DNA of 56,006 bases from Thermoplasmata archaeon (GTDB taxonomy: Archaea > Thermoplasmatota > Thermoplasmata > Methanomassiliicoccales > Methanomethylophilaceae): positions 1 through 56,006 of the forward strand of contig SUSW01000009.1 of assembly GCA_015063235.1 (NCBI GenBank), given 5' to 3'. Below the pieces are notes generated by a model, which searched no databases, had not been told where the DNA came from, and worked only from the letters and a program-made list of their open reading frames with translations. A program made the translations under genes and the position numbers. How positions within the stretch are numbered: position 1 is the stretch's first letter; every line of letters begins with the position of its first letter. This document shows, one piece after another, positions 1,377 through 47,569 of the stretch.

Positions 1377-2018
1377 ATGACACTGAAGGTAGACCCCGAC
1401 GACCTGGCAGCCGCAATGGAGAAGGATCCCGCCATAATAGACGAGAACGACGCTCTCAAATACCATCCCGGACTGATGGCCGTCAGCATGTACAGAGAGA
1501 GCCACGAGCTTTGGCTCAAGGGTGAGAAAGAGAAGGCCAGAGAGATCAACCTCAAGGCCCATCAGCTCACAGGCTGCGACATACATCCCGGGGCCACCAT
1601 CGGAAAGAGATTCTTCATAGACCATGCTACGGGTGTGGTCATCGGAGAGACCACTGAGATCGGTGATGACGTCATGCTCTATCAGGGAGTCACCCTAGGA
1701 GGAGTGTCCACCAATAAAGGCAAGAGGCATCCCACTCTGGGGAACCACATAGTCGTAGGATGCAACGCATCGGTCCTAGGGGCCATCACGATAGGCGACA
1801 ACGTGCGTATCGGTGCCGGTTCCGTGGTCCTGAGGGACATCCCCAGCGACTGTACTGTGGTAGGCGTCCCCGGAAGGATAGTCAAGCACAAGGGTGTCAA
1901 GGTCCAATGCGAGCTGGAGCACAACGACCTGCCCGATCCCGAAGAGGACGAGATCGTCATGCTCAAGAGGGAGATCGAGGAACTCAGGAAGGAGATCCAA
2001 GAGCTCAAGAAAGCCTGA
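1377..2018 (+). CDS. cysE: Serine O-acetyltransferase
   Basis: Transfers acetyl from acetyl-CoA to L-serine, the committing step of cysteine synthesis, in the cytosol. The 213-aa product has an N-terminal helical part ([20 protein letters not shown]) and then a left-handed beta-helix of hexapeptide repeats. The expected catalytic His residues sit in IDHATG (83) and KRHPT (118). A charged coiled-coil tail (about 190-213) is longer than in short CysE forms. The open frame extends to a TTG at 1278, but ATG 1377, with GGGG just upstream, fits the family's N-terminus. The 3' end overlaps the convergent ATPase gene by 14 bp. The gene's proximity to a later cysS (10 kb) is not an operon. Confidence 0.88.
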
Positions 2019-3603
2019 TCTGGTTGCGGATCACTGCCTTCCCATCCATTCTTTTGGGGGAGCGTATCGTTATATCGCCGTTTCCGGCATAGGTTATGGC
2101 TACGTGCACCTCTGAAATGGAACCGTTCTCCTCCTTGATCACCGAGCATGAAGGCGTTTGCCCTCTATGATGAACGGAACTGGGAATGACGATGCTGAAT
2201 CCGCCGGCATCCTTGGTCCAATCGCTTTTCGAGAATCCATACTCGAACGGGAAACCTGTGGCGTCCTCATAATCGTCGACAACCGTCTCTTCCTTACGGC
2301 GGAAGAGGTTCCCCGCACAGTAGAACGGAACGAACTCCCTGTCTCCTGACTTAGGCAGCCTCTTTGATATCACCACGGATCTCTCCACCTTGTACTTTCT
2401 CTGGTATGCATTCAGAGAGGTTGTATCGAAATCTGTTCCGGACTTGACTTCGATTGGTACAGTCCTTCCTCCGATGGATGCGATGAGATCCACCTCATAC
2501 TTCCCGTCCTTCCAATAGAACAGCCTGTCGGAGCCCGATGATATCAGTTCGCTGACAGCTAGGTTCTCGTACATTCCGCCCTTGTAAAGATGTGTGTCGT
2601 CATCCTCTGTGAGCATGATCCCAGCAGGATGTCCGGCCATCGCCCTCAGCAGACCCACGTCGCAGAAGTACAGCTTGTAACTGGTATCGTCCTCTTCGGA
2701 TACCGGCGGGTAGGCGTGCCTCTTGATCAGATTGGCCTTGTACACCATGCCCGAATTCTCCAGCCACTGCACGGGGTCTGCGAAATCAACAGACCTGCCG
2801 TCCTTCTTCAGTTCCTTGAACACAACCCTGCGGCTCTCCCTTGAAAGGAATGAAGGGATGGCGGTCCAAACCGATGTGAGCTTGTCAACCATATACTTTC
2901 CATGCTTGGCGAAATCCTTTCTGTAACCATTGAGAAGCTCCTTCTGAATGGAATCCACCTTTCTTATGTCATGCTCGGTGGACCAGGACTCCACTACGGC
3001 AGGCATACCGCCGACTATGCAGAAATCGCGGAGCTTGCGCAGGATGCTCTCGTGTATCAGTTCCGATATCGCATCGTCCTTAGGGTCGGACATGAGGAAC
3101 TCGGCCAGGGAGGATTCTCCTGTTGCCATGAGGAACTCGATGAAATTCATAGGGTAGAGATGCTTCGTGTCTACCTTTCCGACTGGGAAGGAGGATTCGG
3201 ACATTATGACGCCCAGCAACGAACCTGCGCATGCTACGTGAAGGTCGCCCATGTACTCCTCGAAGTACTTGAGGGATGTTATCGCATTATCGCATTCCTG
3301 AATCTCGTCCAGAATCAGCAGCGTCTTCCCCGGGATCACCTTCTTATTCTTCAGCAGTTCCAAATCCTCGACGATCCTATGAGGGTCCAGATCAGGTTCG
3401 AAAAGCCTTTTCAATTCAGGCGATTGCTCCAGGTTGCAATAGATATAGTCCTCGAACTGCTCCTCTCCCAATTGGGTCAATAGATAGGTCTTACCGCACT
3501 GACGCACCCCCATCAGCATCAATGGTTTCCTGTCGCTGCTATCCTTCCAGGATATCAGTTCGTCGAACAACAATCTCCTCATTGAATCCAGATAGGAATT
3601 CAT
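2005..3603 (-). CDS. AAA (AAA_14/DUF4143) family ATPase with C-terminal nuclease-like domain
   Basis: The 532-aa protein has Walker A GVRQCGKT (32-39), Walker B LLILDE (D99, E100), the CAGSLLG segment and the DUF4143 hallmark GGMPAVV. A PD-(D/E)XK-like patch follows (YEVDLIAS, then VPIEVKSG). Beyond DUF4143 there is an extra domain of about 85 residues, predicted beta-rich, which the 536-aa paralog at 43197-44807 shares. The biological role of this very expanded family is unknown; proposals include mobile-element or defence functions. The promoter region is a 33-bp-phased tandem array (3614-3725) that ends only about 10 bp from the ATG, so the array must affect initiation or transcription of this gene. 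The start ATG (3603) follows an AT-rich TATTTAAATATG context. Confidence 0.85.
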
Positions 3604-3613
3604 ATTTAAATAG

Positions 3614-3725
3614 TAACCGTTATTTTACATAAAATTTCGATGTAAATAACCGTTTTTCTCTAGTATTTTTACCCTCAAAGAACCGTTTTTTTACAGCAGT
3701 TTTATCCTCCAATAACCGTTTTTTG
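3614..3725 (-). repeat. Four-copy array with exact 33-bp period at ATPase promoter
   Basis: AACCGTT(T) cores begin at 3615, 3648, 3681 and 3714, giving spacings of exactly 33, 33 and 33. Sequence between the cores is AT-rich and diverged, so only the core and the phase are conserved. On the coding (minus) strand each core reads (A)AACGGTT preceded by an A-run. The array fills the gap between the ATPase start and the end of the next gene. Repeats this regular act elsewhere as iterons or cooperative operator arrays. Confidence 0.85.
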
Positions 3726-5711: not shown

Positions 5712-5770
5712 GTTCAACCAGGCCCCTTCGCCGCCCGTCCAATCCCTGAAACAATTTATGAAATAATAAA

Positions 5771-5816
5771 ATCTCATATACGAGATATTAAAGGCTAAAT
5801 CAATAAATAATATCTC
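5771..5816. promoter_or_regulatory. Probable HipB operator region
   Basis: ATCTC-N6-GAGAT (5771-5786) and a second TATCTC half site (5811-5816) lie in the AT-rich segment before hipB. HipB-type regulators bind spaced inverted repeats over their promoter. The AAGGTG ribosome binding site for hipB follows at about 5836-5842. Confidence 0.5.
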
Positions 5817-5846
5817 AAATATTAACTTTTAACATAAGGTGCTGAA

Positions 5847-6185
5847 ATGAAGATATCCGGAGAATCCGAATGCGACGATGTTACCAGAGAACTGTCTTTG
5901 AGGTTCAAACAGTACAGGATCCTGTACCCTATGACTCAATCCGAACTGGCCGACAGATCGATGGTATCGGTCAGCACCATCAAGAGATTCGAGAACGGAG
6001 AGGACATCAGTCTCTCGAAACTGATTCGGATAATGAAATCGTTGGATCTTCTGGGGAATACGGACGTTCTGGTACCGGATCTCGGCGACAGACCGAGCAG
6101 GTATCTGGATGACTATAAGCCCAGACAGCGTGCCGGCAGGAAAAGAGGGAAAACATCCGAATGGAAATGGGGGGATGAGGAATGA
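5847..6185 (+). CDS. hipB: HipB-like XRE-family regulator/antitoxin
   Basis: The 112-aa protein has a helix-turn-helix of the Xre class over about residues 15-65 (MTQSELADRSMVSVSTIKRFENG) and a basic, flexible C-terminal tail (PRQRAGRKRGKTS). It precedes the HipA-type kinase with an ATGA overlap, the classic antitoxin-toxin order. It probably binds the ATCTC/GAGAT repeats upstream and holds HipA inactive. The ribosome binding site AAGGTG lies 5 nt before the ATG. Confidence 0.8.
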   Translation: MKISGESECDDVTRELSLRFKQYRILYPMTQSELADRSMVSVSTIKRFENGEDISLSKLIRIMKSLDLLGNTDVLVPDLGDRPSRYLDDYKPRQRAGRKRGKTSEWKWGDEE

Positions 6186-7438
6186 TGGATACCGCAGAGA
6201 TATGGCTCTGGGGTAGCCGGATAGGCATCATACACCAGGGGGAGGGCGATATGGTCCCCTCGTTCGAATATGACGCCGCGTTCAGAGAAAGCGGGATTGA
6301 ACCTGCCCCTTTCAAGATGCCTCTGTCTGAAAATGTGTTCAGATTCCCGGAGCTCCGTGATTCGGAAGCATTCCATGGCCTGCCTGGTCTGTTGGCAGAT
6401 TCCCTCCCCGACAGATTCGGTAACTCCGTCATAGACGTGTGGCTCGAAGCTAGGGGAAGACCGAAGAACAGCATGACTGCCATCGAAAGACTGTGCTACA
6501 CTGGTAAAAGAGGGATGGGTGCCTTGGAATACATCCCGGCGACCTATGAGGGCCGGAACAATGATACGATCGACGTCACAGAGCTGACTGAACTCGCCTC
6601 GGCCATACTCTCCGGGAAGGAACGGTATGAATTCCATGCAGATGATGTCAGCACAGCACAGCTGATAGAGATCGGGTCTTCCGCAGGAGGTTCCAGGGCT
6701 AAAGCGGTGATTGCATGGAACGAGAGCACAGGGGACATCAGGTCCGGTCAGACATCCTTATCTGCGGATTACGGCCAATGGCTGATCAAATTCGATAACA
6801 TCAGCGAGAACGGAGATCACGGAGTCAAGGACAGGAAGCATTACACCCTTATTGAGTACGCATATTACCTGATGGCCAGGGACCTCGGCATCGATATGAC
6901 CGAATGCCGTATACTCGAGAAGGACGGCCTATCCCATTTCATGACCAGGCGGTTCGATAGGAAGGATGGGAAAAAGGTCTTCGTGCAGACATTGGCAGCC
7001 CTCAGGCATATCGATTTCAACGAGCCCAGCCTGTACAGCTATGAATCGTTCGCAGAATGCTCCAGACGGCTCGGTATGGGCATGGATGCCGCGAAGGAGA
7101 TCTTCAGAAGGATGGCGTTCAATTCGATATCGATGAACTGCGACGACCACGTGAAGAACTTCTCGTTCATCATGGGAAGGGACGGCAGGTGGTCCCTGTC
7201 CCCTGCTTATGACATTACCTTCGCATACAATCCGATGAACAGATGGCTGAAGGGACACCAGATGACGATTAATGGAAAGAGTACACAAATCACCGATGAG
7301 GATCTGATCTCCTGCGGCGATTCAATAGGTCTGAGCAAATCCTTCTGCAGATCCGTTCTCAGAGATACAAAGGATGTCGTCGCCAATTGGAAGGAGTATG
7401 CGGAAAAGGTCGGGATCGATAAGGGAACGATTGAATAG
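6182..7438 (+). CDS. hipA: HipA-family serine/threonine kinase toxin
   Basis: The 418-aa protein has an N-terminal HipA subdomain (GLPGLLADSLPDRFG, 67-80), a glycine-rich loop GSSAGGSRAK (165-174), a Lys in LIKF (203), the catalytic MNCDDHVKN (Asp at about 321) and the metal-binding SPAYD (344). All residues expected of an active kinase are present. In E. coli HipA phosphorylates glutamyl-tRNA synthetase and causes dormancy; the target here is unknown. The start overlaps the hipB stop (ATGA). The stop is TAG, the only one seen on an intact gene in this window, with TAA eight codons later. Confidence 0.9.
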   Translation: MMDTAEIWLWGSRIGIIHQGEGDMVPSFEYDAAFRESGIEPAPFKMPLSENVFRFPELRDSEAFHGLPGLLADSLPDRFGNSVIDVWLEARGRPKNSMTAIERLCYTGKRGMGALEYIPATYEGRNNDTIDVTELTELASAILSGKERYEFHADDVSTAQLIEIGSSAGGSRAKAVIAWNESTGDIRSGQTSLSADYGQWLIKFDNISENGDHGVKDRKHYTLIEYAYYLMARDLGIDMTECRILEKDGLSHFMTRRFDRKDGKKVFVQTLAALRHIDFNEPSLYSYESFAECSRRLGMGMDAAKEIFRRMAFNSISMNCDDHVKNFSFIMGRDGRWSLSPAYDITFAYNPMNRWLKGHQMTINGKSTQITDEDLISCGDSIGLSKSFCRSVLRDTKDVVANWKEYAEKVGIDKGTIE

Positions 7439-11536: not shown

Positions 11537-12463
11537 TCATCCTTCTAACGATTTCATCTTCTTCTGGGCATCCGCAAGAAGGTCGCAGGACTTGCATCTC
11601 TTTCCCACGGTGGGCTCTCCGCATTTGCAAAGATGGAGATTCGATGTGGTGTATTCCTTGTATAGCATCGGGCGCAGGGTATCGTACGATGATACGATGC
11701 TGTGCCTGGATCCTGGGGAGCGGTCTTCGAGCTGATCGACGATGTCCCTGTACTGGTTGCGTAGAGCCTCCTTCCAATACGGGCATTCCCCGTCCCAGAA
11801 CTCTATATCGTTCACGATCGCGTAGAGCAGGCTCTCCTTCTCCGGTATCAGCCTCAGAGGGAGGAATCTGGGGATCAGTCCGGGCTGGACCCTCTCATGG
11901 GGACCCATCCTCGCCAGACGCTCCACGTCGCCTCTGACGAAGTTCATCATGATGGACTGCGCCATGTCGTCAAGGTTATGTCCGGTCGCAAGGAATTTGG
12001 CTCCTATCTTCCTCGCCTCGTCATTCATCAGCCTTCTGCGGAACACCCCGCAGTAAGTGCAGGGACTGCTGTCCCTCGAGAGCGGTGCGATGGCATCCAT
12101 GGTCACACCCAGCTCGGTGAAAGAACGCAGGTGGAACTCGATGCCGTTGGATTCGCAGAACCTTCTGACGATATCGACGCTGGGAGGCCTGTATCCTTCT
12201 ATCCCTTCGTCGATCGTAATGGCGTGGACGCCGACTTTGTTCCTGGGTCCGAAGACATCCGATATCAGCTTCAGCGCGACCATGCTGTCCTTGCCGCCTG
12301 ATACCGCTACTGCGATCTGGTCGCCGGGGTAGACCTTGATCTGCTTCCTTATCTCCCTCTTGACCCTCTTCTCAACGAATCTGGAGAAATCCTCGGCACA
12401 GAGATGCATCCCGTTGTATCTGATGAAGGTGACCGCATCCCTGCCGCATTGGTCACATCTCAT
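11537..12463 (-). CDS. TtuA/Ncs6-family tRNA 2-thiolation enzyme
   Basis: The 308-aa protein has an N-terminal zinc-finger (Cys 3, 6 and 22 plus His 20), the PP-loop SGGKDS (55-60) that adenylates the tRNA base, and CTYC (135, 138) plus a later Cys (227). The last three match the [4Fe-4S] ligands of TtuA-type enzymes. A second C-terminal Cys cluster (CKCGEP...CKSC) completes the family layout. It would thiolate uridine, U34 in the Ncs6 branch or U54 in the TtuA branch. The start overlaps the orc1 stop by 11 bp, so the two are translated from one message. Confidence 0.85.
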   Translation of the reverse strand: MRCDQCGRDAVTFIRYNGMHLCAEDFSRFVEKRVKREIRKQIKVYPGDQIAVAVSGGKDSMVALKLISDVFGPRNKVGVHAITIDEGIEGYRPPSVDIVRRFCESNGIEFHLRSFTELGVTMDAIAPLSRDSSPCTYCGVFRRRLMNDEARKIGAKFLATGHNLDDMAQSIMMNFVRGDVERLARMGPHERVQPGLIPRFLPLRLIPEKESLLYAIVNDIEFWDGECPYWKEALRNQYRDIVDQLEDRSPGSRHSIVSSYDTLRPMLYKEYTTSNLHLCKCGEPTVGKRCKSCDLLADAQKKMKSLEG

Positions 12464-13643
12464 CGGAGGCCCCCATGGTTCTGAGGTCGTTCTCGACCAT
12501 CTCCTCCACCTTCTTGGCGAGGACCTTGGAAGGGATGTCGGGCAGGGAGATCTTGGTGGACCTTCCGTTCTTGCCCTCGGTCATCACCCTGGTCCTGACC
12601 AGGCCGATCTTCTCCAGATCCTGAATGTACTTCCAGAACTGGGTGTGCCTCCTGGCGGGAACATCGAACTCCTCGCATACGATGGCGTAGGTCTTCTCAG
12701 CTGATGATATTGGGATGACCACGTTCTGCTTCATGGCACGGGCCACCGACAGCAGGGCGATCTTCTTGTTGATGTCCAATGAACTGATCTTGGATTCCGA
12801 TACTGTGCTATAGATGAGTGCTTTGGCAGCGCGGACGTCCTCGACCGTCACCTCTCCCACAGTGCTCTCCTCGGCTAGGCTGGCGGAACGCTCGAGCAGC
12901 TCAATGGCCATCCTGGCGTCCCCGTATTCTTCGGAACTGTCTGCGATCTGCTCTATGGCATCGTCGCTTATCCTTCCGGGGAACAATGCTATCTCGGAAC
13001 GCTCCTTCACTATGGTCTTCAACTCATCATAGCTGTACTTGTTGAACTTGATGGTTATGGATCTGCGGAACGTCGATGCGGAAGCTTCATCCATCATCTC
13101 GTATACGGATTCCTGCGAGATCATTATCAGCGAGACCGGGGCAGGTTTGGCAACATCGTCGGACATCCTGGTGATCTGATAGATTATGTCCACAGAGTTC
13201 TTCTTGAGTAACACGTTTACCTCATCGAGTATTATCACAAGAGGGCTCCTGTTCTTGTTCAGATGGTTCTTCAGGATGCGTGCCATCTCCTCGGTGGAGA
13301 ATCCCCTGTCGGGATATCCTGGATCGAAATGATGGATAAGATCGATGAGCACCGCGCTCTCCGAGTTGTTGCTCCTGCAGTTGACATACAGGACATCCAT
13401 CTTCATCCCTTTGCCGCTGCAGTAGTCCTTCATATCGTTGCAGAAACGCTTGGCGGTGACGGTCTTGCCGGTACCCACGGAACCCAGAAGGAATGCGTTG
13501 CAGGGGCGGTTCGATTCGACCAGAGGGCGAAACAATGATTCCAGCTGATGCATCTGTCCGTCCCTGTTGACAAGGTTCCTTGGGATGTAGTCGTAATCGA
13601 ATACACTGGGATCCTTGATGATGTTGGATGTCTTCTCGAACAT
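12453..13643 (-). CDS. cdc6: Orc1/Cdc6-type replication initiator
   Basis: AAA+ origin-binding ATPase of 396 aa: Walker A GSVGTGKT (54-61), Walker B LVIILDEVN (about 135-143), a sensor-2 GDARMAIELL, and a C-terminal winged helix (RHTQFWKYIQDLEKIGLV). It loads the MCM helicase at archaeal origins. AAGGTG lies 6 nt before the ATG. Origins often lie beside such genes, and the 200-bp AT-rich gap to the divergent ATPase gene is the candidate here. Archaea can carry several Orc1/Cdc6 paralogs, so this may not be the main initiator. Confidence 0.88.
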   Translation of the reverse strand: MFEKTSNIIKDPSVFDYDYIPRNLVNRDGQMHQLESLFRPLVESNRPCNAFLLGSVGTGKTVTAKRFCNDMKDYCSGKGMKMDVLYVNCRSNNSESAVLIDLIHHFDPGYPDRGFSTEEMARILKNHLNKNRSPLVIILDEVNVLLKKNSVDIIYQITRMSDDVAKPAPVSLIMISQESVYEMMDEASASTFRRSITIKFNKYSYDELKTIVKERSEIALFPGRISDDAIEQIADSSEEYGDARMAIELLERSASLAEESTVGEVTVEDVRAAKALIYSTVSESKISSLDINKKIALLSVARAMKQNVVIPISSAEKTYAIVCEEFDVPARRHTQFWKYIQDLEKIGLVRTRVMTEGKNGRSTKISLPDIPSKVLAKKVEEMVENDLRTMGASDEM

Positions 13644-13764
13644 TTAGGCACCTTTCCGTGGTTTGCTGCTGGTATGGGGTCCACGTTGATGTGCTTCGGA
13701 TATCTTCGAGATAGAAAAATATGGCTCTCTACGAAAGCAGGCGGAAACGGGTTTTGATTTTAAT

Positions 13765-13814
13765 TTACTCCAAAAATCAGAGTAAAATTATTTTACTCCA
13801 AAATTCGGAGTAAA
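13765..13814. promoter_or_regulatory. Two spaced palindromes in the orc1-ATPase divergent gap
   Basis: TTACTCC-N8-(G)AGTAAA occurs twice, with left arms at 13765 and 13793 (28-bp period) and right arms at about 13780 and 13807. The second copy pairs perfectly (TTTACTCC/GGAGTAAA). The site may be an operator of the divergent ATPase or initiator-binding boxes of an origin. A GGAAACGGG string at 13743-13751 faintly recalls mini-ORB cores but is not diagnostic. Confidence 0.6.
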
Positions 13815-13844
13815 TATTTATACCAACAAAGCATAGCAACAATC

Positions 13845-15278
13845 ATGCAGGAATTCATAGGACGTACCAGCGAATTGGAGCTCTTGGAGAGGATCTGGTC
13901 CCGGGAGCGTTACAAATCCTGTGCGGTATACGGCCGCAGACGCATTGGCAAGACACGTCTGATAAATGAGTTCATCAAGGACAAGAGAGGCATCGTCTTC
14001 GATCTGATAATGGGGACCGAGAACGAGAATGTCCAGAGGATGTCAAGGATACTGGCGGACACGATGAACATCTCTACTGATTCGGAAACGCTGTATGACG
14101 TGTTCGGCTGCTTGAAGAGGCTATGCTCCGAAGAAAAGATGATAATCGTTCTCGACGAGCTCCCCTACCTGACAGAGAAGAATAAGAGGGCCGCATCGGA
14201 GATACAGCATTTCATCGACTGGATGGCTGACAGCACGGAATCCATGATCATTGTTTGCGGCTCGTCGATATCGCTCATGCTCGATGAACTGAAGAACAGA
14301 GAGGATCCGCTGTACGGAAGATTCCATCACGAGATAGACCTTGGTCCGCTGTCCCTGCAGGAGACGAGAGGATTCCACCCGAGCCTGTCCGACCAGGATC
14401 TGCTAAGGACATATCTCACATTGGGAGGCATTCCTCTCTACCATGCCGGGGCGGGCGACCGCGACTACGGCTCGATAGTGGAGGAATACCTGTTCGATGC
14501 ATCCGGGATATTCTACAACGATGCGACGGACATAGTCATAAGCGAGATGAAGGAACTGTCCGGAAGCGCCATGTCAGTCCTTGAGTGCATCGCATCAGGG
14601 CTGTGCAGGTTCGGTGACATATCCTCACGCACCGGACTTTCCGATCAGGCCACGGACAGATGCTTGAAAGGGCTGATGGGCATGCGCCTGATAGACGTTC
14701 TCCATCCGATGGCTGGCGCACCGAAACATCCTGTGTACATGATAACGGATCCGTCGGCTGCATTCTTCTTCTCCATCATTAGGAGGAACTACACCGTTTC
14801 CAGATTGTCAGAGGGCATCTACGATGCGCTCAAACAGCAGATATCGGGATTCCTCGGAAGGCAGTTCGAGATATTCTGCAGGGCCGAGATCCCGAAGAGG
14901 TATCCATGCAGGGAGATCGGAAGCTGGTGGGGAGCCGTCCCGGTAAGGGACGATGACGGCAGGCTGCTCCGCGACGATAGAGGCAAGGTCGTGACCGAGG
15001 ACGAGGACATCGATCTGGTGGCAACACTTCATAAAGGCAACTTCCGCATAGATCTCTACGCCGAATGCAAGTTCACCAACCGCAAGGCATCCTTCACTAC
15101 GCTCAACAATCTGGAAAGGAGGGTGTCATTCATTAAGGGAGACGATAACAGGATCCTGATGATCATATCCGTGAACGGTTTCGAGGAGGATCTCGAAGAA
15201 TACGCCGTAGACAATTCTGTTGCGCTAGTAGATATGGATGTCATCATAGGGAAGAAGCCGTATCCCGAACTGTTCTGA
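13845..15278 (+). CDS. Archaeal-type AAA ATPase with DUF234-like nuclease domain
   Basis: The 477-aa protein starts with the GRTSELELL motif of archaeal STAND-like ATPases, followed by Walker A GRRRIGKT (30-37), Walker B MIIVLDELPYL (D104, E105), VCGSS, then GGIPLYH and a winged-helix region. The C-terminal part has EDIDLVATL...IDLYAECKF, a PD-(D/E)XK-like pattern typical of DUF234. Its function is unknown. It is a different family from the two DUF4143 ATPases here, but its promoter also carries tandem palindromes (13765-13814). No Shine-Dalgarno is seen; TATTTATA lies about 30 bp before the ATG, so it is probably leaderless. Confidence 0.85.
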   Translation: MQEFIGRTSELELLERIWSRERYKSCAVYGRRRIGKTRLINEFIKDKRGIVFDLIMGTENENVQRMSRILADTMNISTDSETLYDVFGCLKRLCSEEKMIIVLDELPYLTEKNKRAASEIQHFIDWMADSTESMIIVCGSSISLMLDELKNREDPLYGRFHHEIDLGPLSLQETRGFHPSLSDQDLLRTYLTLGGIPLYHAGAGDRDYGSIVEEYLFDASGIFYNDATDIVISEMKELSGSAMSVLECIASGLCRFGDISSRTGLSDQATDRCLKGLMGMRLIDVLHPMAGAPKHPVYMITDPSAAFFFSIIRRNYTVSRLSEGIYDALKQQISGFLGRQFEIFCRAEIPKRYPCREIGSWWGAVPVRDDDGRLLRDDRGKVVTEDEDIDLVATLHKGNFRIDLYAECKFTNRKASFTTLNNLERRVSFIKGDDNRILMIISVNGFEEDLEEYAVDNSVALVDMDVIIGKKPYPELF

Positions 15279-16578: not shown

Positions 16579-16701
16579 TCACGGCACCAGATTCAGGACG
16601 AAGGCCACATGCGCACCGTCATGATAAACGGCGCCACAGATGGCTAGAGTCTCGTCGACTATCGGATCCACCAGCCTGGGGAGATATCTTTCATTATTCA
16701 T
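16579..16701 (-). pseudogene. Relic of an AAA ATPase gene start
   Basis: ATG 16701 opens a 40-codon frame whose first 25 residues (RYLPRLVDPIVDETL...CGAV) look like the N-terminus of a DUF4143-family ATPase. In such proteins a P-loop would follow; here the frame runs into unrelated residues and stops at TGA 16579. No ATPase continuation was found downstream to 16451. Upstream it retains a tandem array (16745-16796), as do the intact ATPases. The family match is from memory of the group's N-termini and is moderate. Confidence 0.4.
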
Positions 16702-16744
16702 CGTAACAGAAAAAAGATGTGTTGTACCTATGTAACAACGTAAC

Positions 16745-16796
16745 TTTCACTGATTCCATAAGGTCATTTTCACTGATTCCATAAGGTCATTTTCAC
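16745..16796 (-). repeat. 23-bp direct repeats upstream of the ATPase relic
   Basis: TTTCACTGATTCCATAAGGTCA occurs twice in a row, starting at 16745 and 16768, and TTTCAC restarts at 16791, giving spacings of exactly 23. On the minus strand the unit contains GTGAAAATGACC. The rest of the 16451-16941 gap holds only this array, the relic and two hairpins. Confidence 0.8.
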
Positions 16797-26520: not shown

Positions 26521-29500
26521 TCAGCTGCGGTTGAGCCTGAGGACGAGGATAACCACCATGATCGCGATCAGGATGACCAGGACGATCAGGAGGATGTCGG
26601 TGAGCGAGAGTCCGGAGTCTCCGACGGCTGGTTCGGGAGTGGGCTCGGGTATGGGGGTGACACCCGATGCGACGAGCTCCATGTCATCGATGACGCAGAC
26701 GGTCTTCTCTCCGTTGATGACGGGATTACCCTGGTACTTGGTGGTATCGGAGATCTTCGCGGTGAAGTAGGATCCGTAGGGGACATCGGTGGGGATGTCG
26801 TATACGTTGAACAGCACGCCGTTCATGTAGTAGTCGACACCAGCGACGTACTTCACGATGACGGTGACATAGGTTGCCTTTGCTTCTGCGTATGCGTTGG
26901 TCTCTCCAACAGTTGCGTTTGCATCACCGTTGTAGTTGATCCAAGCAGTGAAGTTGTATCCTACAATCTCAGGAACAATAGCTGCATCGGCCTTCGAGAG
27001 TTTGATTGTGTCCTCCTCTGCGAAGATCGTTGCATAAAGGTTCTCCTCAACGATGAGTTTGGATGAAACAGCATCTCCAGCTGCCACACCATTGTGAGAT
27101 ACAGTAATCTCGGCCAGAGTAAGGTCGACGTCTGAGTATGCCACAAGGTAGTAGAATTTCTCTGCACCTGGAGTAAGATCATTGTTGATGACGACCTTTC
27201 CGACTATGGATGATCCCTCGCTGCCGAGAACGGTAATGGGGGTACCGATAATCAGGTTAGCCTCAAGGACCAGCTTGTAATCGTCAGCGATCGTGATGTT
27301 GACATCCTTTCCGCTGAGATCCAGCTTCTTATCAACGGTGACATCCTTTCCATCGATAGTGATATCAGTGACGTCATCGAAGTCGATGTTCTTGAAATCT
27401 GTGTAGACTGTGTATCCATCTTCCTCGAAAGTCGCTTCGTAGGTAAGCTTCTCGTAATCTGAGGATCCGGTCTCCCTCATGTGCATGGTTATTGCACCAA
27501 TCTCTCCGTGTGCGGTGGTTGCTCCGATAATGTAGACATCATCTCCGATAATTCCTGCATCCTTGTTGACAATCACACCATTAAGGTATGCGTCATCAAT
27601 AGCTTTGATGGCTCCGATATCAACAGTTCCCTTGATGGTCATGACCTTGGCATCCTTGTACTTGTCTGCCTTGATGATCAGATCTGCTGCATCATCATCG
27701 TTGACGTTGGAGACCAACAAGAGTGCGTATCCGTTCTCGTCGTCGGTTGAATCAACAATCTGAGCGGTCACACTGGCAGCGTACTTCTTCTCTGTTCCAA
27801 CATCCTTTGTAGCTCCGCTGGCGAGAATGAATGACTGTCCGTCTGCAAGGACGATCTTTCCTGCTCCGAGGTAAACTCCAGTTGCTGTTGTTCCCTTACT
27901 GAGGTTGAGAGTTCCGTTAACCACAACGATCGAGGGCATCTTGACGACCTCATCGACAACGAACCCATCGGTCACTTTCTTGTACTTGACCTCATACTGT
28001 GCATCGACAATAGCAGCAGTAGCATCGAAGATCGCTCCCTCTGCGACTGCGAAAGTACCGAATACAGTCTTTTCCTTGGTATCGGACTTCTGCTGCTTCT
28101 CGGGTGTGTTGGTAAGTGTGATCTTTCCAGCTCCGGTTCCCTCAGACATTGTAAGGGTACCGTCATTGTATGAGACGTCAAGACTGATCTTAGCTGGATC
28201 AGATGCGGTCGCTGCGATTCCAGCGATTGTGTTTGCGTATGCGTTGAACCTGACCTTGTCAAGGACGATGATGTTGTCTCCGAATGCAAAGGTTCCGTTC
28301 ACGTTGTAGATCGCCTCAGTGGTAGGTGCCTTTCCGGTCTGTCCGAAAGTGACCTTTGCAGTTCCCACTATGGTTATCTTCGCTCCCTCGGACATCGAGA
28401 GTCCATGGGCTCCGAATGACATGGTGGAACCAGTGCTGACGATAACGTTAACGTTCTTGGGAACAGTGATGTTGTCGTTGATGGGTGCCTCAGCGGCCTC
28501 TACGGTAAGGGTCGATCCCTCCTCGCAGTTCGCTACAGCGTATGCGACATCAGAGTAGATTGTGTATGCCCCATCCTGAATAGTGAAGGACATGATGCAT
28601 TTGACGACTCCATAGTCGGTAACAGGTGTGGTTCCGGTGACGAAGTTACTCTTGGCATCCTTAGATACCTTGAGTGCTGCATTGCTGACATCTACTGTCG
28701 CGGTTGTGGCGACCTCGGCTGTGGATCCAGCCTCGAAGACCATTGCATACCTGACAGGCATATTAATGGACTCAGGGAACGCGAATGTTCCTGCTGTCAC
28801 CTTGATGTTGACGTTCTTTCCTGTTGCAAGTGCACCCATCTCATCCTTGTTGAATGCGAAGTATCCGGGTTTTACAGCTTCAGTCTCTGTAGCGTTAGCA
28901 CCCTCCATCATCTTGATGGTTACCTTTCCTGCTCCTGTTGAACTGGAAAGGTCTGCATCCAGACTGAGCGTTGCGGTGTATGTTGTCTTAGTCTCTGCTT
29001 CCTTCGTCGCCTTGTACTTGGAGTTGTATGTAAGGTCTCCGACGACCTTTCCAGAAACAGTAACTGCGATATCTCCGACTGCCTCTCTGTTGATGGTGAT
29101 ATTTCCTTCGACGTTCTTGACAACAACACTGCCCTCTGAAGTTATGTCGCCCTTTATGGTACCGCTAGATGTCACACCGGTAGACGTGGTGATGTTTCCT
29201 TCGACCTTTCCGTTGGCCTCATCCTTTGTGTAGACCACATTGACAGCACCCTTGGCTGTGATGTTTCCGTTGTAAGTTCCATTGATGGTGGATGTCTGGA
29301 CTCCCGTGGTTATGTCTCCCTCGAAGGTAGCACCATTTGCCACAAGTTCCCATGCACCTGTTCCGTATGCAGTGATGGTTCCGTCGTTGTCGAACGTTCC
29401 GCCTGCTGCTGTGATAAGTGCTGCGCCGTCAGCAATGATTCCAGTTCCACCCATTCCCTTCAAGATCTTATCTTCTGAAAGTGCCGCGTCTGCAGTAGGC

Positions 29501-32500
29501 TTGACAAGAGTAAGGTCTCCAGTTATTTTTCCTGATACTGCCATGCTGTATTTGGCAGTGGTGCCTGTAGCATCATAGTTCAGTGTGACTGATGAGACGA
29601 TACTGGTTCCAGACATCTTAGTCAGGGTGAGTTTGTATGCTACCTTATCTGCTGTGACGTTCTGGCTTGTTGTAAGTGTTCCGGTGTAACCGGTCTCGAC
29701 TACTGTTGTTGACTTATCAGACTTCATTCCGGTTATGGCCGCATCCGTAATCTTAAGAGATCCGTCATTCTGGAATTCTCCTGCAATTACATCGATGATC
29801 TGAACCTGGGCTGTTCCCGCTGAAATGGTGGTATTCGTAGGGAATGTGATAGTGATGTCGTTTGCATCGACTACAGGTTTGATGATCTTAGCAAAAGAGG
29901 TGATGGTTCCATTGTTGGTCATCGTTCCGTCAGAATTCTTGAGTGTACCGAAGACATTGACGGTGCCCTCGATGTTCATAACGGCCTCGTTGTTGACAAC
30001 CGCCTCTGCCAAAATTACAGTCTTTCCCGAAAGGTTGATGGTTCCATTGTTGGTCAATACAGGCACATCTACTGTTCCTGTGGGATCTCCGAATACCAAT
30101 CCATCGACGGAAAGGGTGGAATCCTGCATGACCTCAATTCCTACTCCGTCGTCTATTCCAAGGATCTCCGCTCCGCCTGTGATGGTAGCAGCAGATGCCC
30201 CCCTTACACTAATTGATTCGGCTTCGACTCCGATTGCTTTTCCGGATACTGACATGACGGCCCTGTTCTTCAATTCGAATCCAGTTCCTGCAAATCCGGT
30301 TCCTGCAGAATTGATAGTGATGCTGCTTGCGTTTGCTGTTATTCCAGAAGTGTCCTGGTAGATACCATATACATACTCTGCGTCTGCTGTGTATGTAGTA
30401 AGCACGGATACTTCAACATCAGAATTGTCGATATCCAAACCTTTTACCGTGTCAGCAAAGATTCCGATCGCTTTGATCTCCTTGGCATCCCAAGTAGCAT
30501 TGGTTCCTTTTATGGTAACTTCGAGATCCACAGAGTCAATGACTTTCAGGGTACCAACCAGGAGGCCACCGACTGCAGTAACTCCAACTGTCTCCATAAC
30601 ATCCTTGGTCAACTTAGATGCATCGTACTCAATAGACAGCGATCCAGCATCCTTAGTAGTGCTGATCTCGGTCACAGCTGGGAAAAGCATAAGCTCCGCT
30701 CCCGTTTCAGGTGCGGCATACGTGATACTGTTGACTCCAACTACGGTTATTGTTGTGATTCCCGGCAATACTCCTAAGTTGTATGTTCCGTTGTAACCAT
30801 TGAGAGTGAGTTTCGTTCCGTCTTTTGTAACAGCCCATTCTCCGCCGAGAGCGTCTTTTCCGACCAACTGGTCGTATGCTGCTTCATCCTCTCCATCTAT
30901 GATCCCTGCGATTCCATTGATATCGGAACCGGAGTATGCGACGAACTGACTCTTGGTGTTATTAAATGTCACTTCAACGGCCTTAACTGTTGATCCGGAG
31001 TTAGCTGTGATTGTTATTGGGTAATACGCTGCGGGTGCGGTTTTCAGTTTTTCAGTAACTGTTGCAACTGAAAGTTCGCCGTTGACCGTGATGTTTCCGG
31101 CTGTGACGATGCCTCCTGTTCCTGTTCCGAAGAGCTTTCCATCGACCTGCAGAGCAATCTTGTCGCTATCGATGATCAGATTGTTAGTTCCTTTAATTTC
31201 GAGAGTCTTGTCATCTCCGCTCTCGATGATGACCTTTGCGGTTCCTGTGGTTCCGGAGTATTTGACAGTGAAGTTATCACCGCTTACTGAACCAGCCATC
31301 TTGAGCTCGGTTCCACTGGTGACAGTGATTTCTCCAGCGTATTCCTTTCCGTCGATGATGACTGATCCCTTTGTGATGGTAAAGCTTCCCTGCATGTCCT
31401 TCAATGTTACCGTCTTAGCATCGGTTCCGGTTCCGGTGGTAATCTTTCCAGATACTTTGCTGAATCCAGAGAACGATACTGATCCGGTTGTTACTGAAAC
31501 GTTAAGATCGGCGACAGTATTGTTTCCATCCTTTCCGACAAATGCAACTTCCTTAGCACCGACATCAACTGTCTCGTCAGCATCTGCTGCAACATTAGGC
31601 AGAACAATGATTGCATTCTTTGCTCCGGCATCTTCCAAAGCGGCCTCGATGGCTGTGTCGACAGCCTTTCCGGTAGTAGCTGTAACCTCTTCCGGTTTGG
31701 CATCGGTTCCATCGAATTTTATAGATCCGTTGTCATTGTTAACGTAAGCGCTCCAAGGTTCTGCCGTAGGTTTAGTGGTATCCCATCCGACGACGGATGC
31801 TCCCTTAGCGAAGTTGATCGTACCGTTGTTGGTGAGTGTGTATACGATGTCTTCTGCGCTTGCACCACTCTCGACTGGCAATTCAATATTCAACCTTGCA
31901 CCAACATCGTAGTTGATCGTTGTTCCCTTAGCGACAGTGAATTTCTCTGCAGCATCCTCAGCAAGTGTTGTTGTTCCAGTGATGGTCACTGTGCTGCCAG
32001 ACTTAATGTACTGGAGAATATCACCGTCTGAGAATGTTCCTCCGTTGATCTCTACAGCTACTCTGTCTTTGATAGCGTCAGCTTCATCAATAGCATGACC
32101 GGCTTTCTTTAAGACTCCAGTAGAGATGCTTCCGTTAATAGTTCCCGAATTGATAATAACTTTTGAAGTTCCATTGAGTGCAGGTGTTCCTCCATTGTTA
32201 TCGTATGTGTGACTGTATACAGAGGCGATTACCTGACCTGTAATATCCGATCCATTAATTGTTATTACAGCAGGCTTATCATAATACTGTCCATCTGTTC
32301 CGGTATTGTTTGCCACGAGCCATGTTGCAGCAACTGCGTAGTCACCAGGCAAAGCCTTAATGGTAACAGTGGAATCCATACTAATTGTTCCGGATGTGGA
32401 TGTGATAGCAGCTGCATGATTGCTATTGTCAGTAGTGATTCCAGTTATATCCACTGTAAGATTCTTTAATGTCACAGATTTGTAAGACTGGAGCAAAATA

Positions 32501-33168
32501 AATGAAAGATCATTTTTTGCATCGGCTGCTACTGCTGCTTCTGCGGCAATAATCTGTCCATCATGAATTGTCCAAGTCTCATGTGCATTAGTCTGTATTA
32601 CTTTGTTGATAGACTGAACACCATAAAGTGCTCCGCCAGGAGTGTATGTATTTCCGTTGAGATCCCAATCTACAACCTTTGTAGTACCTTTGGCAGCTGC
32701 ATCAACACCGATAACAATTGCTGCAACATCTTCATCGTCATCAATACTTACAATTTTAACATTTGATGCAGACGTAAATGCGGTACTCTCCAGAGCCCTT
32801 ACATATGTACTTAGATGGCTTGAGTACAGGAAATCGGTTGGTTCAGTAGTTCCGTAAATCTTTGTCTTTACGGTGAAACCAATCTCTGCAATCTGAGAAT
32901 CATCCGTAATACCTTGGATTGTTATTCCAGTTCCAATGAAGCCATCAAAATCAGGGGCTTCAACCATGGCGTCATAATCCGTAATATTAAGGATTTTGCC
33001 TTCCTTTGTGAACGTATATCCTGTACCGACTGTTACTGGATCGTCCAGATCATCTAATGCTACAGGTTCTGCATCATTACTCTGAACATCAGAAATAATA
33101 GCAAATGCAGCAAAAGCCATAGCCAGAACAGCCAGGACTGCCAGGAATTTAATTCCTTTTGTATTCAT
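26521..33168 (-). CDS. Giant adhesin-like surface protein (2215 aa)
   Basis: It starts with a signal peptide (FLAVLAVLAMAFAAFA), followed by some 2000 residues of short Thr/Val/Gly/Asn-rich beta-strand repeats (patterns such as GTINGSIS, EGNITTSTG, NNGTINLSG). These are typical of right-handed beta-helix adhesins. Near the end come B-repeat-like segments (GYNFTAWINYNGD), a Pro-Glu stalk, one membrane helix (TDILLIVLVILIAIMVVILVL) and RLNRS. It would project from the cell surface. The last 300 bp are almost identical to adhesin 2, pointing to recent duplication or gene conversion. The AAAAGGAG ribosome binding site ends a conserved leader (33169-33345). Confidence 0.8.
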   Translation of the reverse strand: MNTKGIKFLAVLAVLAMAFAAFAIISDVQSNDAEPVALDDLDDPVTVGTGYTFTKEGKILNITDYDAMVEAPDFDGFIGTGITIQGITDDSQIAEIGFTVKTKIYGTTEPTDFLYSSHLSTYVRALESTAFTSASNVKIVSIDDDEDVAAIVIGVDAAAKGTTKVVDWDLNGNTYTPGGALYGVQSINKVIQTNAHETWTIHDGQIIAAEAAVAADAKNDLSFILLQSYKSVTLKNLTVDITGITTDNSNHAAAITSTSGTISMDSTVTIKALPGDYAVAATWLVANNTGTDGQYYDKPAVITINGSDITGQVIASVYSHTYDNNGGTPALNGTSKVIINSGTINGSISTGVLKKAGHAIDEADAIKDRVAVEINGGTFSDGDILQYIKSGSTVTITGTTTLAEDAAEKFTVAKGTTINYDVGARLNIELPVESGASAEDIVYTLTNNGTINFAKGASVVGWDTTKPTAEPWSAYVNNDNGSIKFDGTDAKPEEVTATTGKAVDTAIEAALEDAGAKNAIIVLPNVAADADETVDVGAKEVAFVGKDGNNTVADLNVSVTTGSVSFSGFSKVSGKITTGTGTDAKTVTLKDMQGSFTITKGSVIIDGKEYAGEITVTSGTELKMAGSVSGDNFTVKYSGTTGTAKVIIESGDDKTLEIKGTNNLIIDSDKIALQVDGKLFGTGTGGIVTAGNITVNGELSVATVTEKLKTAPAAYYPITITANSGSTVKAVEVTFNNTKSQFVAYSGSDINGIAGIIDGEDEAAYDQLVGKDALGGEWAVTKDGTKLTLNGYNGTYNLGVLPGITTITVVGVNSITYAAPETGAELMLFPAVTEISTTKDAGSLSIEYDASKLTKDVMETVGVTAVGGLLVGTLKVIDSVDLEVTIKGTNATWDAKEIKAIGIFADTVKGLDIDNSDVEVSVLTTYTADAEYVYGIYQDTSGITANASSITINSAGTGFAGTGFELKNRAVMSVSGKAIGVEAESISVRGASAATITGGAEILGIDDGVGIEVMQDSTLSVDGLVFGDPTGTVDVPVLTNNGTINLSGKTVILAEAVVNNEAVMNIEGTVNVFGTLKNSDGTMTNNGTITSFAKIIKPVVDANDITITFPTNTTISAGTAQVQIIDVIAGEFQNDGSLKITDAAITGMKSDKSTTVVETGYTGTLTTSQNVTADKVAYKLTLTKMSGTSIVSSVTLNYDATGTTAKYSMAVSGKITGDLTLVKPTADAALSEDKILKGMGGTGIIADGAALITAAGGTFDNDGTITAYGTGAWELVANGATFEGDITTGVQTSTINGTYNGNITAKGAVNVVYTKDEANGKVEGNITTSTGVTSSGTIKGDITSEGSVVVKNVEGNITINREAVGDIAVTVSGKVVGDLTYNSKYKATKEAETKTTYTATLSLDADLSSSTGAGKVTIKMMEGANATETEAVKPGYFAFNKDEMGALATGKNVNIKVTAGTFAFPESINMPVRYAMVFEAGSTAEVATTATVDVSNAALKVSKDAKSNFVTGTTPVTDYGVVKCIMSFTIQDGAYTIYSDVAYAVANCEEGSTLTVEAAEAPINDNITVPKNVNVIVSTGSTMSFGAHGLSMSEGAKITIVGTAKVTFGQTGKAPTTEAIYNVNGTFAFGDNIIVLDKVRFNAYANTIAGIAATASDPAKISLDVSYNDGTLTMSEGTGAGKITLTNTPEKQQKSDTKEKTVFGTFAVAEGAIFDATAAIVDAQYEVKYKKVTDGFVVDEVVKMPSIVVVNGTLNLSKGTTATGVYLGAGKIVLADGQSFILASGATKDVGTEKKYAASVTAQIVDSTDDENGYALLLVSNVNDDDAADLIIKADKYKDAKVMTIKGTVDIGAIKAIDDAYLNGVIVNKDAGIIGDDVYIIGATTAHGEIGAITMHMRETGSSDYEKLTYEATFEEDGYTVYTDFKNIDFDDVTDITIDGKDVTVDKKLDLSGKDVNITIADDYKLVLEANLIIGTPITVLGSEGSSIVGKVVINNDLTPGAEKFYYLVAYSDVDLTLAEITVSHNGVAAGDAVSSKLIVEENLYATIFAEEDTIKLSKADAAIVPEIVGYNFTAWINYNGDANATVGETNAYAEAKATYVTVIVKYVAGVDYYMNGVLFNVYDIPTDVPYGSYFTAKISDTTKYQGNPVINGEKTVCVIDDMELVASGVTPIPEPTPEPAVGDSGLSLTDILLIVLVILIAIMVVILVLRLNRS

Positions 33169-34365: not shown

Positions 34366-37300
34366 TCAGCTGCGGTTGAGCCTGAGGACGAGGATGACGA
34401 CCATGATCGCAATCAGAATGACCAGGACGATCAGGAGGATGTCGGTAAGTGAAAGACCGGAGTCTCCGACGGCTGGTTCGGGGGTAGGTTCAGGTATGGG
34501 GGTGACACCTGAAGCAACGAGCTCCATGTCGTCGATGACGCAGACGGTCTTCTCTCCGTTGATCAAGGGGTTACCCTGGTACTTGGTGGTATCGGAGATC
34601 TTCGCGGTGAAGTAGGATCCGTAGGGGACATCGGTGGGGATGTCGTATACATTGAACAGTGTGCCATTCATGTAGTAGTCCACTCCTGCGACGTACTTCA
34701 CGGTGATCGTGAGGTAGACTGCCCTTGCATCGGCGTAGGCATTGGTCTCTCCGACCTCTGCCTTGGCGTCGCCGTTGTAGTTCAGCCAGGCGGTGAAGTT
34801 GTATCCGGTGATCTCGGGAATGAGTGCTGCATCTGCCTTTGCGAGGACGAGCTCATCATCCGCATCGGCGAAGATCGTTGCATAGACGACATCCTCGATG
34901 TCGAGCTTGGAGAAGACTGCGTCGTCTCCGTCTGCACCGACGATCTCTGCCAGCAAGAGGTTAGCATCAGCGTATGCGACGATGTATGCCTTATATCCAT
35001 CTTCGGAATCGATTACGACCTTTCCGATGATCGATGAGCCTTCGTCACCGAGGACGGTGGCGGGGGTTCCGATGATCAGGAGCTTGGTAACGGTGAGTGT
35101 CGCATCCTCTGTGATGACGATGTTGACATCCTTGCCGCTGAGGTCGAGCTTGTCGACTTCGACATTATGTGCGATGACGACGTCAGAGACCTCGTCCCAG
35201 TCTATGGAATCGAACTGGGTGTAGATGTAGTATCCATCTTCCATGAAGACTGTCTCGTAGATCAGGTCCTTGAAGGGAGCCTCGCCCATGTGGATGTTCT
35301 TTGCTCCGACGCTTCCACCGAGTACTGTAGTTGAGTCGTTGACGATGATGTAGACGTCCTCTCCGTAGATGATCGAGTCTTTGCCAAGCGCCAGTCCGTT
35401 GAGGTATGCATCATCGACCGCTTTGATGATCGAGTTGCTTGCTACTAATCCGCTGATGGTGACTGCATCGACCTTCTCTCCGCCGATGGTGAGCTTCTCC
35501 GCCTTCAGCACCAGATCCACAATACCTGCGACAGGCGATGTGAAGTTGAAGAGGTATCCGTTCGCATCTTCGGTGGTGTCCACGACGTATGTGTTGAGGC
35601 TTCCGGGGTAGTTCAAGGCCACATCGAAATCATCGGGGAGATCTCCCTTGTCCACTGTGAGTGTGTTGTTGGCTGCGATGGTGACATGTCCGAATCCGAC
35701 ATAGCCTCCGAGAACAGTCGTATCGTTCAGCAGGTTGAGGGTTCCCTCGACGCCGACGATGGTCGAATTCATTACGATCTCCTTGACCTCGGGTCCGTTG
35801 TCGGTATCCTTGTACTTGACCATTGCGGCTGAATCCTCGAGCTTTACGGCATCGAACACGGCATCGGCCGCTACGACGAATGTTCCGAATACGCAGAACG
35901 TCTCGGAATCGTCGGACTTGGTCTCGTCGTACAGGGTGTTGAACAGCTTGACGGATCCGGTGCCGAGTCCGCTGACCTTGGCCTGTCCTGCGATGAGCTG
36001 GAAGTCGGTCTTGATCTTGGCATCCGCGGAAGCGGTTGCTGCTACTCCCTGGATTGTGGAATCATCCATGAAGAACCTTGCCTCGTCGAATACGATCGAG
36101 TTGTCTCCGTAGACGATGGTTGCGCTTACGGTGTAGTATGTGATCTCCTCTCCCTCTTTGATCGATTCGTAGTTGGTCTGAGTGGGCTTGAAGATGACCT
36201 TTCCGGTTCCCTCGAGGGTGATCTTTGCGCCCTCGAGCATCTCGACATCCTTTCCGTTGAAGGTCAGGGTGATGTCCTCGACGACGATGTTGACACCGGC
36301 CTTGACAACGACGTCCTGGTCGATGGTTGCGGACTCTCCGACATAGAGCTCTGTGTTCTCCTCGCAGTTGAGGAGTGCGTAAGCGACATCGGAGTAGATG
36401 GTGTATGCTCCGTTCTCGATTTCGAATGCCATGACGAAGTAGACCTTACCGTAGTTCACGGAGGCTCCGGGTCCGACCTCGAAGAGTGCGTTGGCGTCCT
36501 TGGAGACCTTCAGCGCTGCCTTCTTGACATCAAGGCTTGCTGCGGACTTGTTGACTTCGATTGTAGCTCCGGCTTCGATGGTGAGGTAGTACCTGGCCTC
36601 GAGGGTCTTCACGGAATCCACGAGGATCCTTCCCTCTGTCAGGGCCATGGCGACGGTCTTGTTGTCTCCGAGCTCTCCGGTGTTGTTGATCTTGAAGAAT
36701 CCGGGGACTGCTTCAGCGGACGCTGTAGCATCGCTTCCCTTCGCAAGGTCGATGATGAGGTCGTTGGGTGTTCCTCCGACGGCCATGGTCGCTGTGAACA
36801 TCGTGGGCTCGGTCGCGGTTGTGGACTCCTTGTAGTTCGAGATGTAGACGACCTCGACTATGACGATACCGTCAAGTGTGACGGTCTTGGGATCTGCATC
36901 CGCGTTCGGCCTGTCGACCGTGATCTTTCCGACCATGTTGACGACTACGACGTTACCGCTGGCGAGTATGTTTCCGACGAGGTTGCCGTTGATGGTGACA
37001 TTGTTCTTTGCGGTGATGTCTCCGGTCATCGTCTTGCTTGCCGATACCACGACGGATCCGTGAGAGTGGATGTTTCCGTTGAAGTTGGCGACGGTCACTG
37101 TTCCTTCTCCGGCGGCGATGAGGTCTCCGTTGAAGGCTCCTGAGATGGTCACATCGCCGAGGTATGTGGCGAGGTTACCGTTGAAGGTAGCGTTCTCCTC
37201 GATGATCTCCTCTGCTCCAGACGCGTAGACTGTGATGTGGTTTTTGTTGTCGATGGTTCCTGCAGCAATATCGAAGATGGCTCCGGACTCCACGATGAGG

Positions 37301-43033: not shown

Positions 43034-43083
43034 ATTGCAGAAAAGTATCAGAAAACAGCCTCATAGATTGCAGAAAAGTGTCA
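43034..43083. repeat. Two 17-bp repeats with 33-bp period
   Basis: ATTGCAGAAAAGTATCA (43034) and ATTGCAGAAAAGTGTCA (43067) are exactly 33 bp apart, the same period as the two ATPase arrays. They lie 51-100 bp upstream of fic. On the + strand they lead into ATG 43082 and a short frame of 21 codons that may be a lost ATPase start. Ownership is uncertain. Confidence 0.65.
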
Positions 43084-44831: not shown

Positions 44832-44986
44832 TTTGTACGTTTCCCAGCTATTTATGAAGTCGAATTTGTACGTTTCCCAGCTATTTCAAATTCAATTTTT
44901 GTACGTTTCCCAGCTATTTCAAATTCAGTTTTTGTACGTTTCCCAGCTATTTATGAAGCTGAATTTGTACGTTTCCCAGCTATTTT
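44832..44986 (-). repeat. Five-copy array with exact 33-bp period at ATPase promoter
   Basis: A 22-bp unit TTTGTACGTTTCCCAGCTATTT repeats with GTACGT at 44835, 44868, 44901, 44934 and 44967, that is four spacings of exactly 33. The 11-bp linkers come in two kinds: outer linkers 1 and 4 (ATGAAG...GAA) and inner linkers 2 and 3 (CAAATTCA.TT). TGAATTTG in the outer kind is the reverse complement of CAAATTCA in the inner kind. In the ATPase sense each unit reads GGGAAACGTACAAA. It is too short and linkers too similar for a CRISPR. Confidence 0.9.
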
Positions 44987-47565: not shown

Positions 47566-47569
47566 ATTA

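Follow-up and report, generated by a model that had tools for sequence, protein, structure and literature searches.

The DNA analysed here, referred to as the window, is a stretch of 56,006 nucleotides from a Thermoplasmata archaeon of the family Methanomethylophilaceae. Two repeat arrays with a 33-bp step are present in the window, each directly upstream of an AAA_14 ATPase ORF on the minus strand, and the corresponding features are as follows.

2005-3603, minus strand: AAA_14-DUF4143 ATPase by Pfam (the 3.6-kb protein); PADLOC PDC-S01, E 7.3e-139; AlphaFold pLDDT 91.5
3612-3724, minus strand: putative operator array of the 3.6-kb ATPase, four copies at a 33-bp step, gene-strand core AAAAACGGTTA
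43197-44807, minus strand: second ATPase of the same subfamily (the 44.8-kb protein), AAA_14; PDC-S01, E 8.5e-102
44832-44985, minus strand: putative operator array of the 44.8-kb ATPase, five copies at a 33-bp step, gene-strand core CTGGGAAACGTACAAA

The heptamer AACCGTT occurs at 3615, 3648, 3681 and 3714 (span 3615-3720) with steps of exactly 33 bp, and the longer repeat AATAACCGTTTTT around it is found at 3612, 3645, 3678 and 3711 (steps 33, 33 and 33). The 44.8-kb array consists of TTTGTACGTTTCCCAGCTATTT five times at 33-bp steps, so the four cores and the step common to both arrays, as described in the initial annotation, were confirmed by position. Chance origin of the arrays was excluded by dinucleotide shuffles and by their recurrence at >200 other loci. 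The description of the two genes as DUF4143 ATPases applies to one of them, since Pfam finds DUF4143 in the 3.6-kb protein and not in the 44.8-kb protein, while both match PDC-S01. The two cores, which had been called unrelated, do differ, yet in gene orientation both fit the family scaffold G/A-AAAA-x-(G)T-(G), as AAAAAACGGTT and GGGAAACGTAC. In the 44.8-kb array (44832-44985), and also upstream of loci L003, L004 and L170, the spacers alternate or run A-B-B-A, so twice the period (66 or 46 bp) sometimes matches or outscores the single one.

The 3.6-kb array lies between a MatE gene and the start of ORF 2005-3603, and since both genes are on the minus strand, the intergenic promoter serves the ATPase gene only. 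The start codon of this ATPase is probably Met8 (window 3580-3582), which lines up with the M(F)RRK at which homologues begin; an ATTTAAAT box is then ~30 bp upstream. Start codons and promoters are predictions throughout, and many of the genomes compared are metagenome assemblies.

The genome contains 14 DUF4143 and 23 AAA_14 matches, and a repeat array precedes most of its DUF4143-type genes (upstream DNA read by eye and with a script). The spacing was then compared among 110 homologues of the 3.6-kb protein in archaea of the window's own genus (31 genomes), with the 99.9th percentile of dinucleotide shuffles of the upstream DNA as array threshold. The upstream DNA of 82 of the 110 exceeded this threshold, with periods of 32, 33 and 34 bp in 27, 48 and 7 cases and no other period, so arrays at the homologues are neither absent nor randomly spaced. 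As controls, shuffles beat the threshold score in 0.2% at any period, and stretches within genes did so in 14/449. A chain finder recovered 100 arrays of two to five copies each, with steps of 33 bp (123), 32 bp (66) and 34 bp (17). A second, mainly bacterial set comprised 80 relatives from named genomes, including Treponema, Fibrobacter, Lachnospiraceae, Bacilli, Bacteroidales and Kiritimatiellae; 57 of its 79 testable upstreams passed the same threshold, at 33 bp in 29, 32 bp in 26 and 31 bp in 2. Arrays were also found at 75/94 further loci from other archaeal genera and viral contigs. As far as archaea were sampled, the family of the window commonly has the 33-type, which is nearly absent from the other families of the order. 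Overall, ~10-20% of homologues are without a detected array.

Other subfamilies have other periods. In the 'GPKWSGKT' subfamily (L002 type) the period was 23 or 24 bp at 24 of 31 loci and 46 bp, twice 23, at two more; in the L009 type, palindromic sites recur every 39-40 bp at 8/26 loci; and the ATPase_2-DUF234 type has palindromic sites with a period of 27-29 bp in 18/25. The last type is represented in the window.

13764-13814, plus strand: two palindromic sites TTTACTCCaaaaatcaGAGTAAA at a 28-bp step, upstream of the DUF234-type ATPase gene
13845-15278, plus strand: ATPase_2-DUF234 protein, matching PADLOC PDC-S27; related subfamily with a 28-29-bp period

The view that the shared spacing is a family rule thus stands in the form of a 32-34-bp constant within the subfamily and not as a universal 33 bp, given the periods of 23, 28-29 and 39-40 bp elsewhere.

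Several further loci of the window were recorded. A Cdc6/Orc1 gene (12453-13643) is divergent from the DUF234 ATPase gene, with the 28-bp palindromic sites in between (13643-13845). A 33-bp rule extending beyond the ATPases was suggested by the Fic-HTH gene at 41694-42983 with two sites 33 bp apart, and was set aside because only 3/12 homologues exceeded the null, each with a different period. The two sites, ATTGCAGAAAAGTRTCA at 43034-43083 upstream of the gene, resemble the ATPase scaffold in an orientation opposite to Fic, and may be a relic or else a target of some ATPase. Homologues of the Fic-HTH protein (L388, L389 and related loci) have the palindrome ACCCTACCAATTTGGTAGGGT upstream, which is likely an autoregulatory site of the Fic-HTH family. 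Near the 44.8-kb ATPase, the RloB-like and AAA_21 genes at 46531-48844 match PADLOC AbiLii and AbiLi and are likely an abortive-infection pair, and an HTH and HipA-like pair at 5847-7438 with an inverted repeat upstream (5767-5831) is likely a toxin-antitoxin locus. Three very large ORFs are on the minus strand, at 26521-33168 (2215 aa), 34366-40653 (2095 aa) and 50446-55605 (1719 aa).

The position of the arrays relative to the predicted promoters was examined in both domains. In archaea, TATA-like boxes are most frequent at -30 relative to the start codon; the last operator copy, with a median position of -34, thus overlaps or abuts the predicted TATA/BRE. In Bacteroidales, the predicted -7 box TAnnTTTG is found at ~-41 and is preceded at ~17 bp by an operator copy that lies between the -33 and -7 elements, and the plasmid homologue of B. 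thetaiotaomicron has two sites exactly 66 bp apart on either side of the -7 box. The repeats therefore overlap the predicted core promoter of their own gene in archaea and Bacteroidales, and this placement of the last copy is as expected for a repressor, suggesting cooperative autorepression. In some cases operators upstream of the promoter could instead serve activation. Regular repeats beside a nuclease-like protein could also be transcribed and work as RNA in the manner of CRISPR or a leader RNA, a reading that we regard as extremely improbable: the arrays are at or upstream of the TATA/-7 box and mostly above the predicted transcription start, so they would mostly remain untranscribed with the gene, and no credible Rfam match was found. 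The features of a CRISPR array (identical repeats, unique spacers, transcription) are likewise not seen, since the spacers here resemble one another and are not variable inserts.

The 3.6-kb protein was divided into the following domains, the boundaries being our own reading of secondary structure and motifs.

3124-3603, minus strand: AAA+ ATPase domain, residues 1-160, with conserved Walker A G32xRxxGK38 and Walker B D99-E100
2665-2898, minus strand: winged helix, residues 236-313, from AlphaFold and covariation; proposed reading head with recognition helix 271-283
2794-2796, minus strand: codon of Arg270, the residue covarying with the operator base before TG
2305-2664, minus strand: PD-(D/E)XK-like domain, residues 314-433, with conserved E346, E370-x-D372 and E385-x-K387
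2008-2304, minus strand: extra C-terminal beta domain, residues 434-532, common to the 44.8-kb protein; most array-bearing homologues are without it

The AlphaFold model (pLDDT 91.5) places a helical lid between the AAA+ domain and the winged helix. Conserved motifs and the order of elements in the model agree with an ATPase fused to a PD-(D/E)XK domain, whose nuclease-like motif E-x-D...E-x-K is conserved at 87-96%. The best fold matches were SSO1545 (2fna) and Orc1/Cdc6 on origin DNA (2qby), with weak matches to NLR/STAND proteins and MalT (8bob), and a sequence search of the PDB gave no relative at E 0.01.

The core sequences follow the protein. Mean core similarity rose with protein identity, from 0.29-0.31 (identity <50%) through 0.36 (50-60%) to 0.55 (>60%), and the Mantel correlation of core with protein was 0.245, whereas 500 permutations gave at most 0.093. 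Close orthologues have a common core, shared above ~55-60% identity and not below, and none of the 197 within-genome pairs has one (maximum similarity 0.53). In the genome of the window, CTGGGAAACGTAC occurs exactly five times, all within the 44.8-kb array, its two one-mismatch matches elsewhere equalling the reversed-pattern control, and a double AAAACGGTT is found only at the 3.6-kb ATPase gene itself. The cores are thus private and not independent of the protein, in agreement with the initial annotation, and its proposal that each ATPase reads its own array is, judged from the sequences, the most likely reading. Pairs above 60% identity number 1/197 within genomes and 61/3898 between genomes; avoidance of close paralogues within a genome was considered, and the counts are too small to claim it.

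The extra C-terminal domain had been suggested as the part that reads the core. Both window proteins do carry this domain, with 27% identity between them, and it was dismissed as the reader because L003 (451 aa) and L007 (445 aa) bear arrays without it and because the covariation signal falls instead on the winged helix between the ATPase and nuclease-like domains. The reader is most likely this winged helix of the protein itself. From 159 aligned repeat units we derived a family scaffold, roughly CCT-x-G-r-AAAA-x-G-T-G, whose register becomes doubtful at loci that diverge strongly from the consensus, and scanned mutual information between protein columns and the 33 operator positions. The top pair joined operator position 8, the base before TG, to residue 270, which lies at the N-terminal end of the recognition helix (z 11.6, the next pair 6.95; rank 1 of 347 columns). 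G at position 8 was found at 52/71 loci with Arg/Lys270 and at 7/48 with other residues (Fisher 1.9e-10, inflated by relatedness). Of nine supported pairs that are independent of one another, 5.3 showed a base change in the same direction as the residue and 0.0 a change in the reverse direction (median p 0.06). Since relatedness inflates the p value and independent changes are few, the rule was frozen and applied to new loci, a set that includes a few near-duplicate viral contigs, with the covarying base masked during alignment. In this held-out test G was present in 12/33 with R/K270 and 2/37 without (p 0.002), and in 10/22 and 0/23 when only scaffold-fitting units were used (p 0.0002); 21 of the 33 R/K270 proteins are without G. 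Covariation by 30-residue windows was weak, with partial correlations of at most 0.134 that were highest at residues 61-105 and 211-285, and that of the whole protein was weak and spread beyond the winged helix, so the winged helix is assigned as reader from the single-residue test, as repeated on held-out loci. The site sequence tracks a predicted DNA-binding residue of the protein over a modest number of independent changes. Self-binding of the ATPase is a prediction, and a separate transcription factor could in principle read each array; this we consider very improbable, because the array travels with the ATPase alone and the core covaries with the recognition helix of the ATPase.

The unit of gain and loss is the array together with the ORF. 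In several homologue pairs of 67-92% DNA identity at unlinked sites, the similarity spans approximately the array plus ORF and the flanks are unrelated. A 23-type cassette of genome G005 is absent from G001 at the collinear site (an empty site) and mostly deleted in G006, where the 3' end of the gene remains; this deletion apparently took place between ATTTCATG repeats and resembles a microhomology deletion rather than an excision. The window also contains what is, from its sequence, the footprint of a lost cassette (16615-16796), made up of two parts.

16751-16796, minus strand: orphan array with a 23-bp period, core GTGAAAATGACCTTATGGAATCA, matching the cores of L156 and L158
16615-16701, minus strand: 29 residues left of the N-terminal part of a 23-type ATPase; nearest proteins L158 (69% identity) and L156 (66%), E ~1e-8

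The core of the orphan array had indicated the L156/L158 clade before the remnant was searched for, and the remnant then matched that clade. On plasmids, protein homologues of the ATPase are present and no array homology was found at the DNA level; plasmid-borne homologues of gut bacteria with upstream operators in 33-bp phase are L473 (Segatella copri) and L472 (Bacteroides thetaiotaomicron).

The ORC-like fold, the linkage of Orc1/Cdc6 genes to private adjoining ORBs (PMC3528665) and the joint gain and loss of array and ORF would also suit iteron-, origin- or partition-like sites, or the one-sided ends of a mobile element moved by the ATPase-nuclease. We consider this quite unlikely, as there are up to 16 copies per genome, searches of the genome with both window cores found no second core copy 3' of the gene, the loss in G006 does not resemble excision, and the promoter overlap would be left without explanation.

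We consider it likely that the cassettes are autorepressed, with the ATPase binding its own array cooperatively through the winged helix and blocking its own promoter. The arrays, their period and privacy, their linkage to the gene, the overlap with predicted promoters and one residue-base covariation were observed, and from these we infer binding, cooperativity and repression; any defence role would be an inference as well. Each gene would form a self-contained cassette in which an operator array overlapping the promoter is joined to the coding sequence of a STAND/ORC-like ATPase, a protein with a PD-(D/E)XK-like domain and an internal winged helix. Through this winged helix the protein would bind its own array with about one protomer or dimer per repeat, assemble cooperatively along it, cover the core promoter and repress its own transcription. 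The spacing would be set by oligomerisation of the protein and so be constant within a subfamily (33, 23, 28-29 or 39-40 bp), and the core would be set by winged-helix residues and so be private to each paralogue, allowing up to ~16 paralogues per genome to be regulated independently.

A different role would be that of a tether or sensor, with the ATPase-nuclease parked inactive on its own array, released to attack DNA when the array is lost or displaced by an invader, and with transcription control as a side effect. The family is a phage-defence candidate, its nuclease-like motif is well conserved, and up to five copies per array exceed the needs of a simple operator; the nuclease activity is, however, putative, and autorepression would predict the core-promoter position seen in both archaea and bacteria, so we regard this alternative as improbable. 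Somewhat less doubtful, though still unlikely, is that the array is a self-identity tag on which each of up to ~16 ATPase-nucleases per cell is held inactive, and that disturbance of host DNA or transcription frees it. If so, one array would both limit expression and arm defence, and the private code would stop the modules from triggering each other.

The PDC-S01 profile matches the full protein in both window ATPases and also in L003 (E 7.2e-137), L009 (E 1.5e-129) and L002 (E 5.1e-55). According to PMC12988326, PDC-S01 is the fourth most common prokaryotic defence system, with 9,986 archaeal and 29,494 bacterial copies, and is a candidate, validation being pending for most such candidates; PMC13356809 gives it as the most frequent individual locus in rumen genomes. 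The proteins studied here are members by profile and have the ATPase and PD-(D/E)XK fusion in common with PDC-S01 as described there. In contrast, no operator array appears in the available descriptions of these two papers, and the main text of PMC12988326 does not mention promoters, operators or direct repeats. No published description of the arrays was found in a search of open-access journal papers, so an earlier description elsewhere is possible.

The nearest precedent for private, gene-adjacent pairs of repeat and protein is Orc1/Cdc6 with its ORBs in haloarchaea (PMC3528665), which likewise combines AAA+ and winged-helix domains, several paralogues per genome and a diverged repeat linked to each paralogue, and whose fold is matched (2qby). 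ORBs, however, flank an unwinding element and start replication, whereas in the present family the array has a fixed period and overlaps the promoter, and the window proteins have a nuclease-like domain and no Cdc6 match in Pfam, the Cdc6 of the window being the separate gene at 12453-13643. For autorepression by an ATPase on spaced sites the nearest precedent is ParA of plasmid F and other F-type partition operons (PMC8465637), a winged-helix ATPase that represses itself cooperatively on spaced repeats, but its ATPase fold is another, its sites are hexamers in an inverted repeat at a 28-bp spacing instead of a direct 33-bp array, and the F system includes a partner, ParB, and a centromere. 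Neither has the full combination found here. Toxin-antitoxin autorepression is similar in its single mobile locus and private operator and differs in that no antitoxin partner was seen here and the putative effector is itself the protein proposed to read the DNA. STAND regulators such as MalT form ATP-dependent oligomers on repeated promoter sites; the weak fold match (8bob) is to MalT, which activates other genes through one common box, unlike the private sites at the own gene only in this family.

Since a fixed-period private array provides a predicted DNA ligand for each protein, binding, oligomer geometry and regulation are directly testable. Thousands of protein-operator pairs are readable from genomes and may constitute a natural recognition code, and the family could supply orthogonal regulators for bacteria and archaea.
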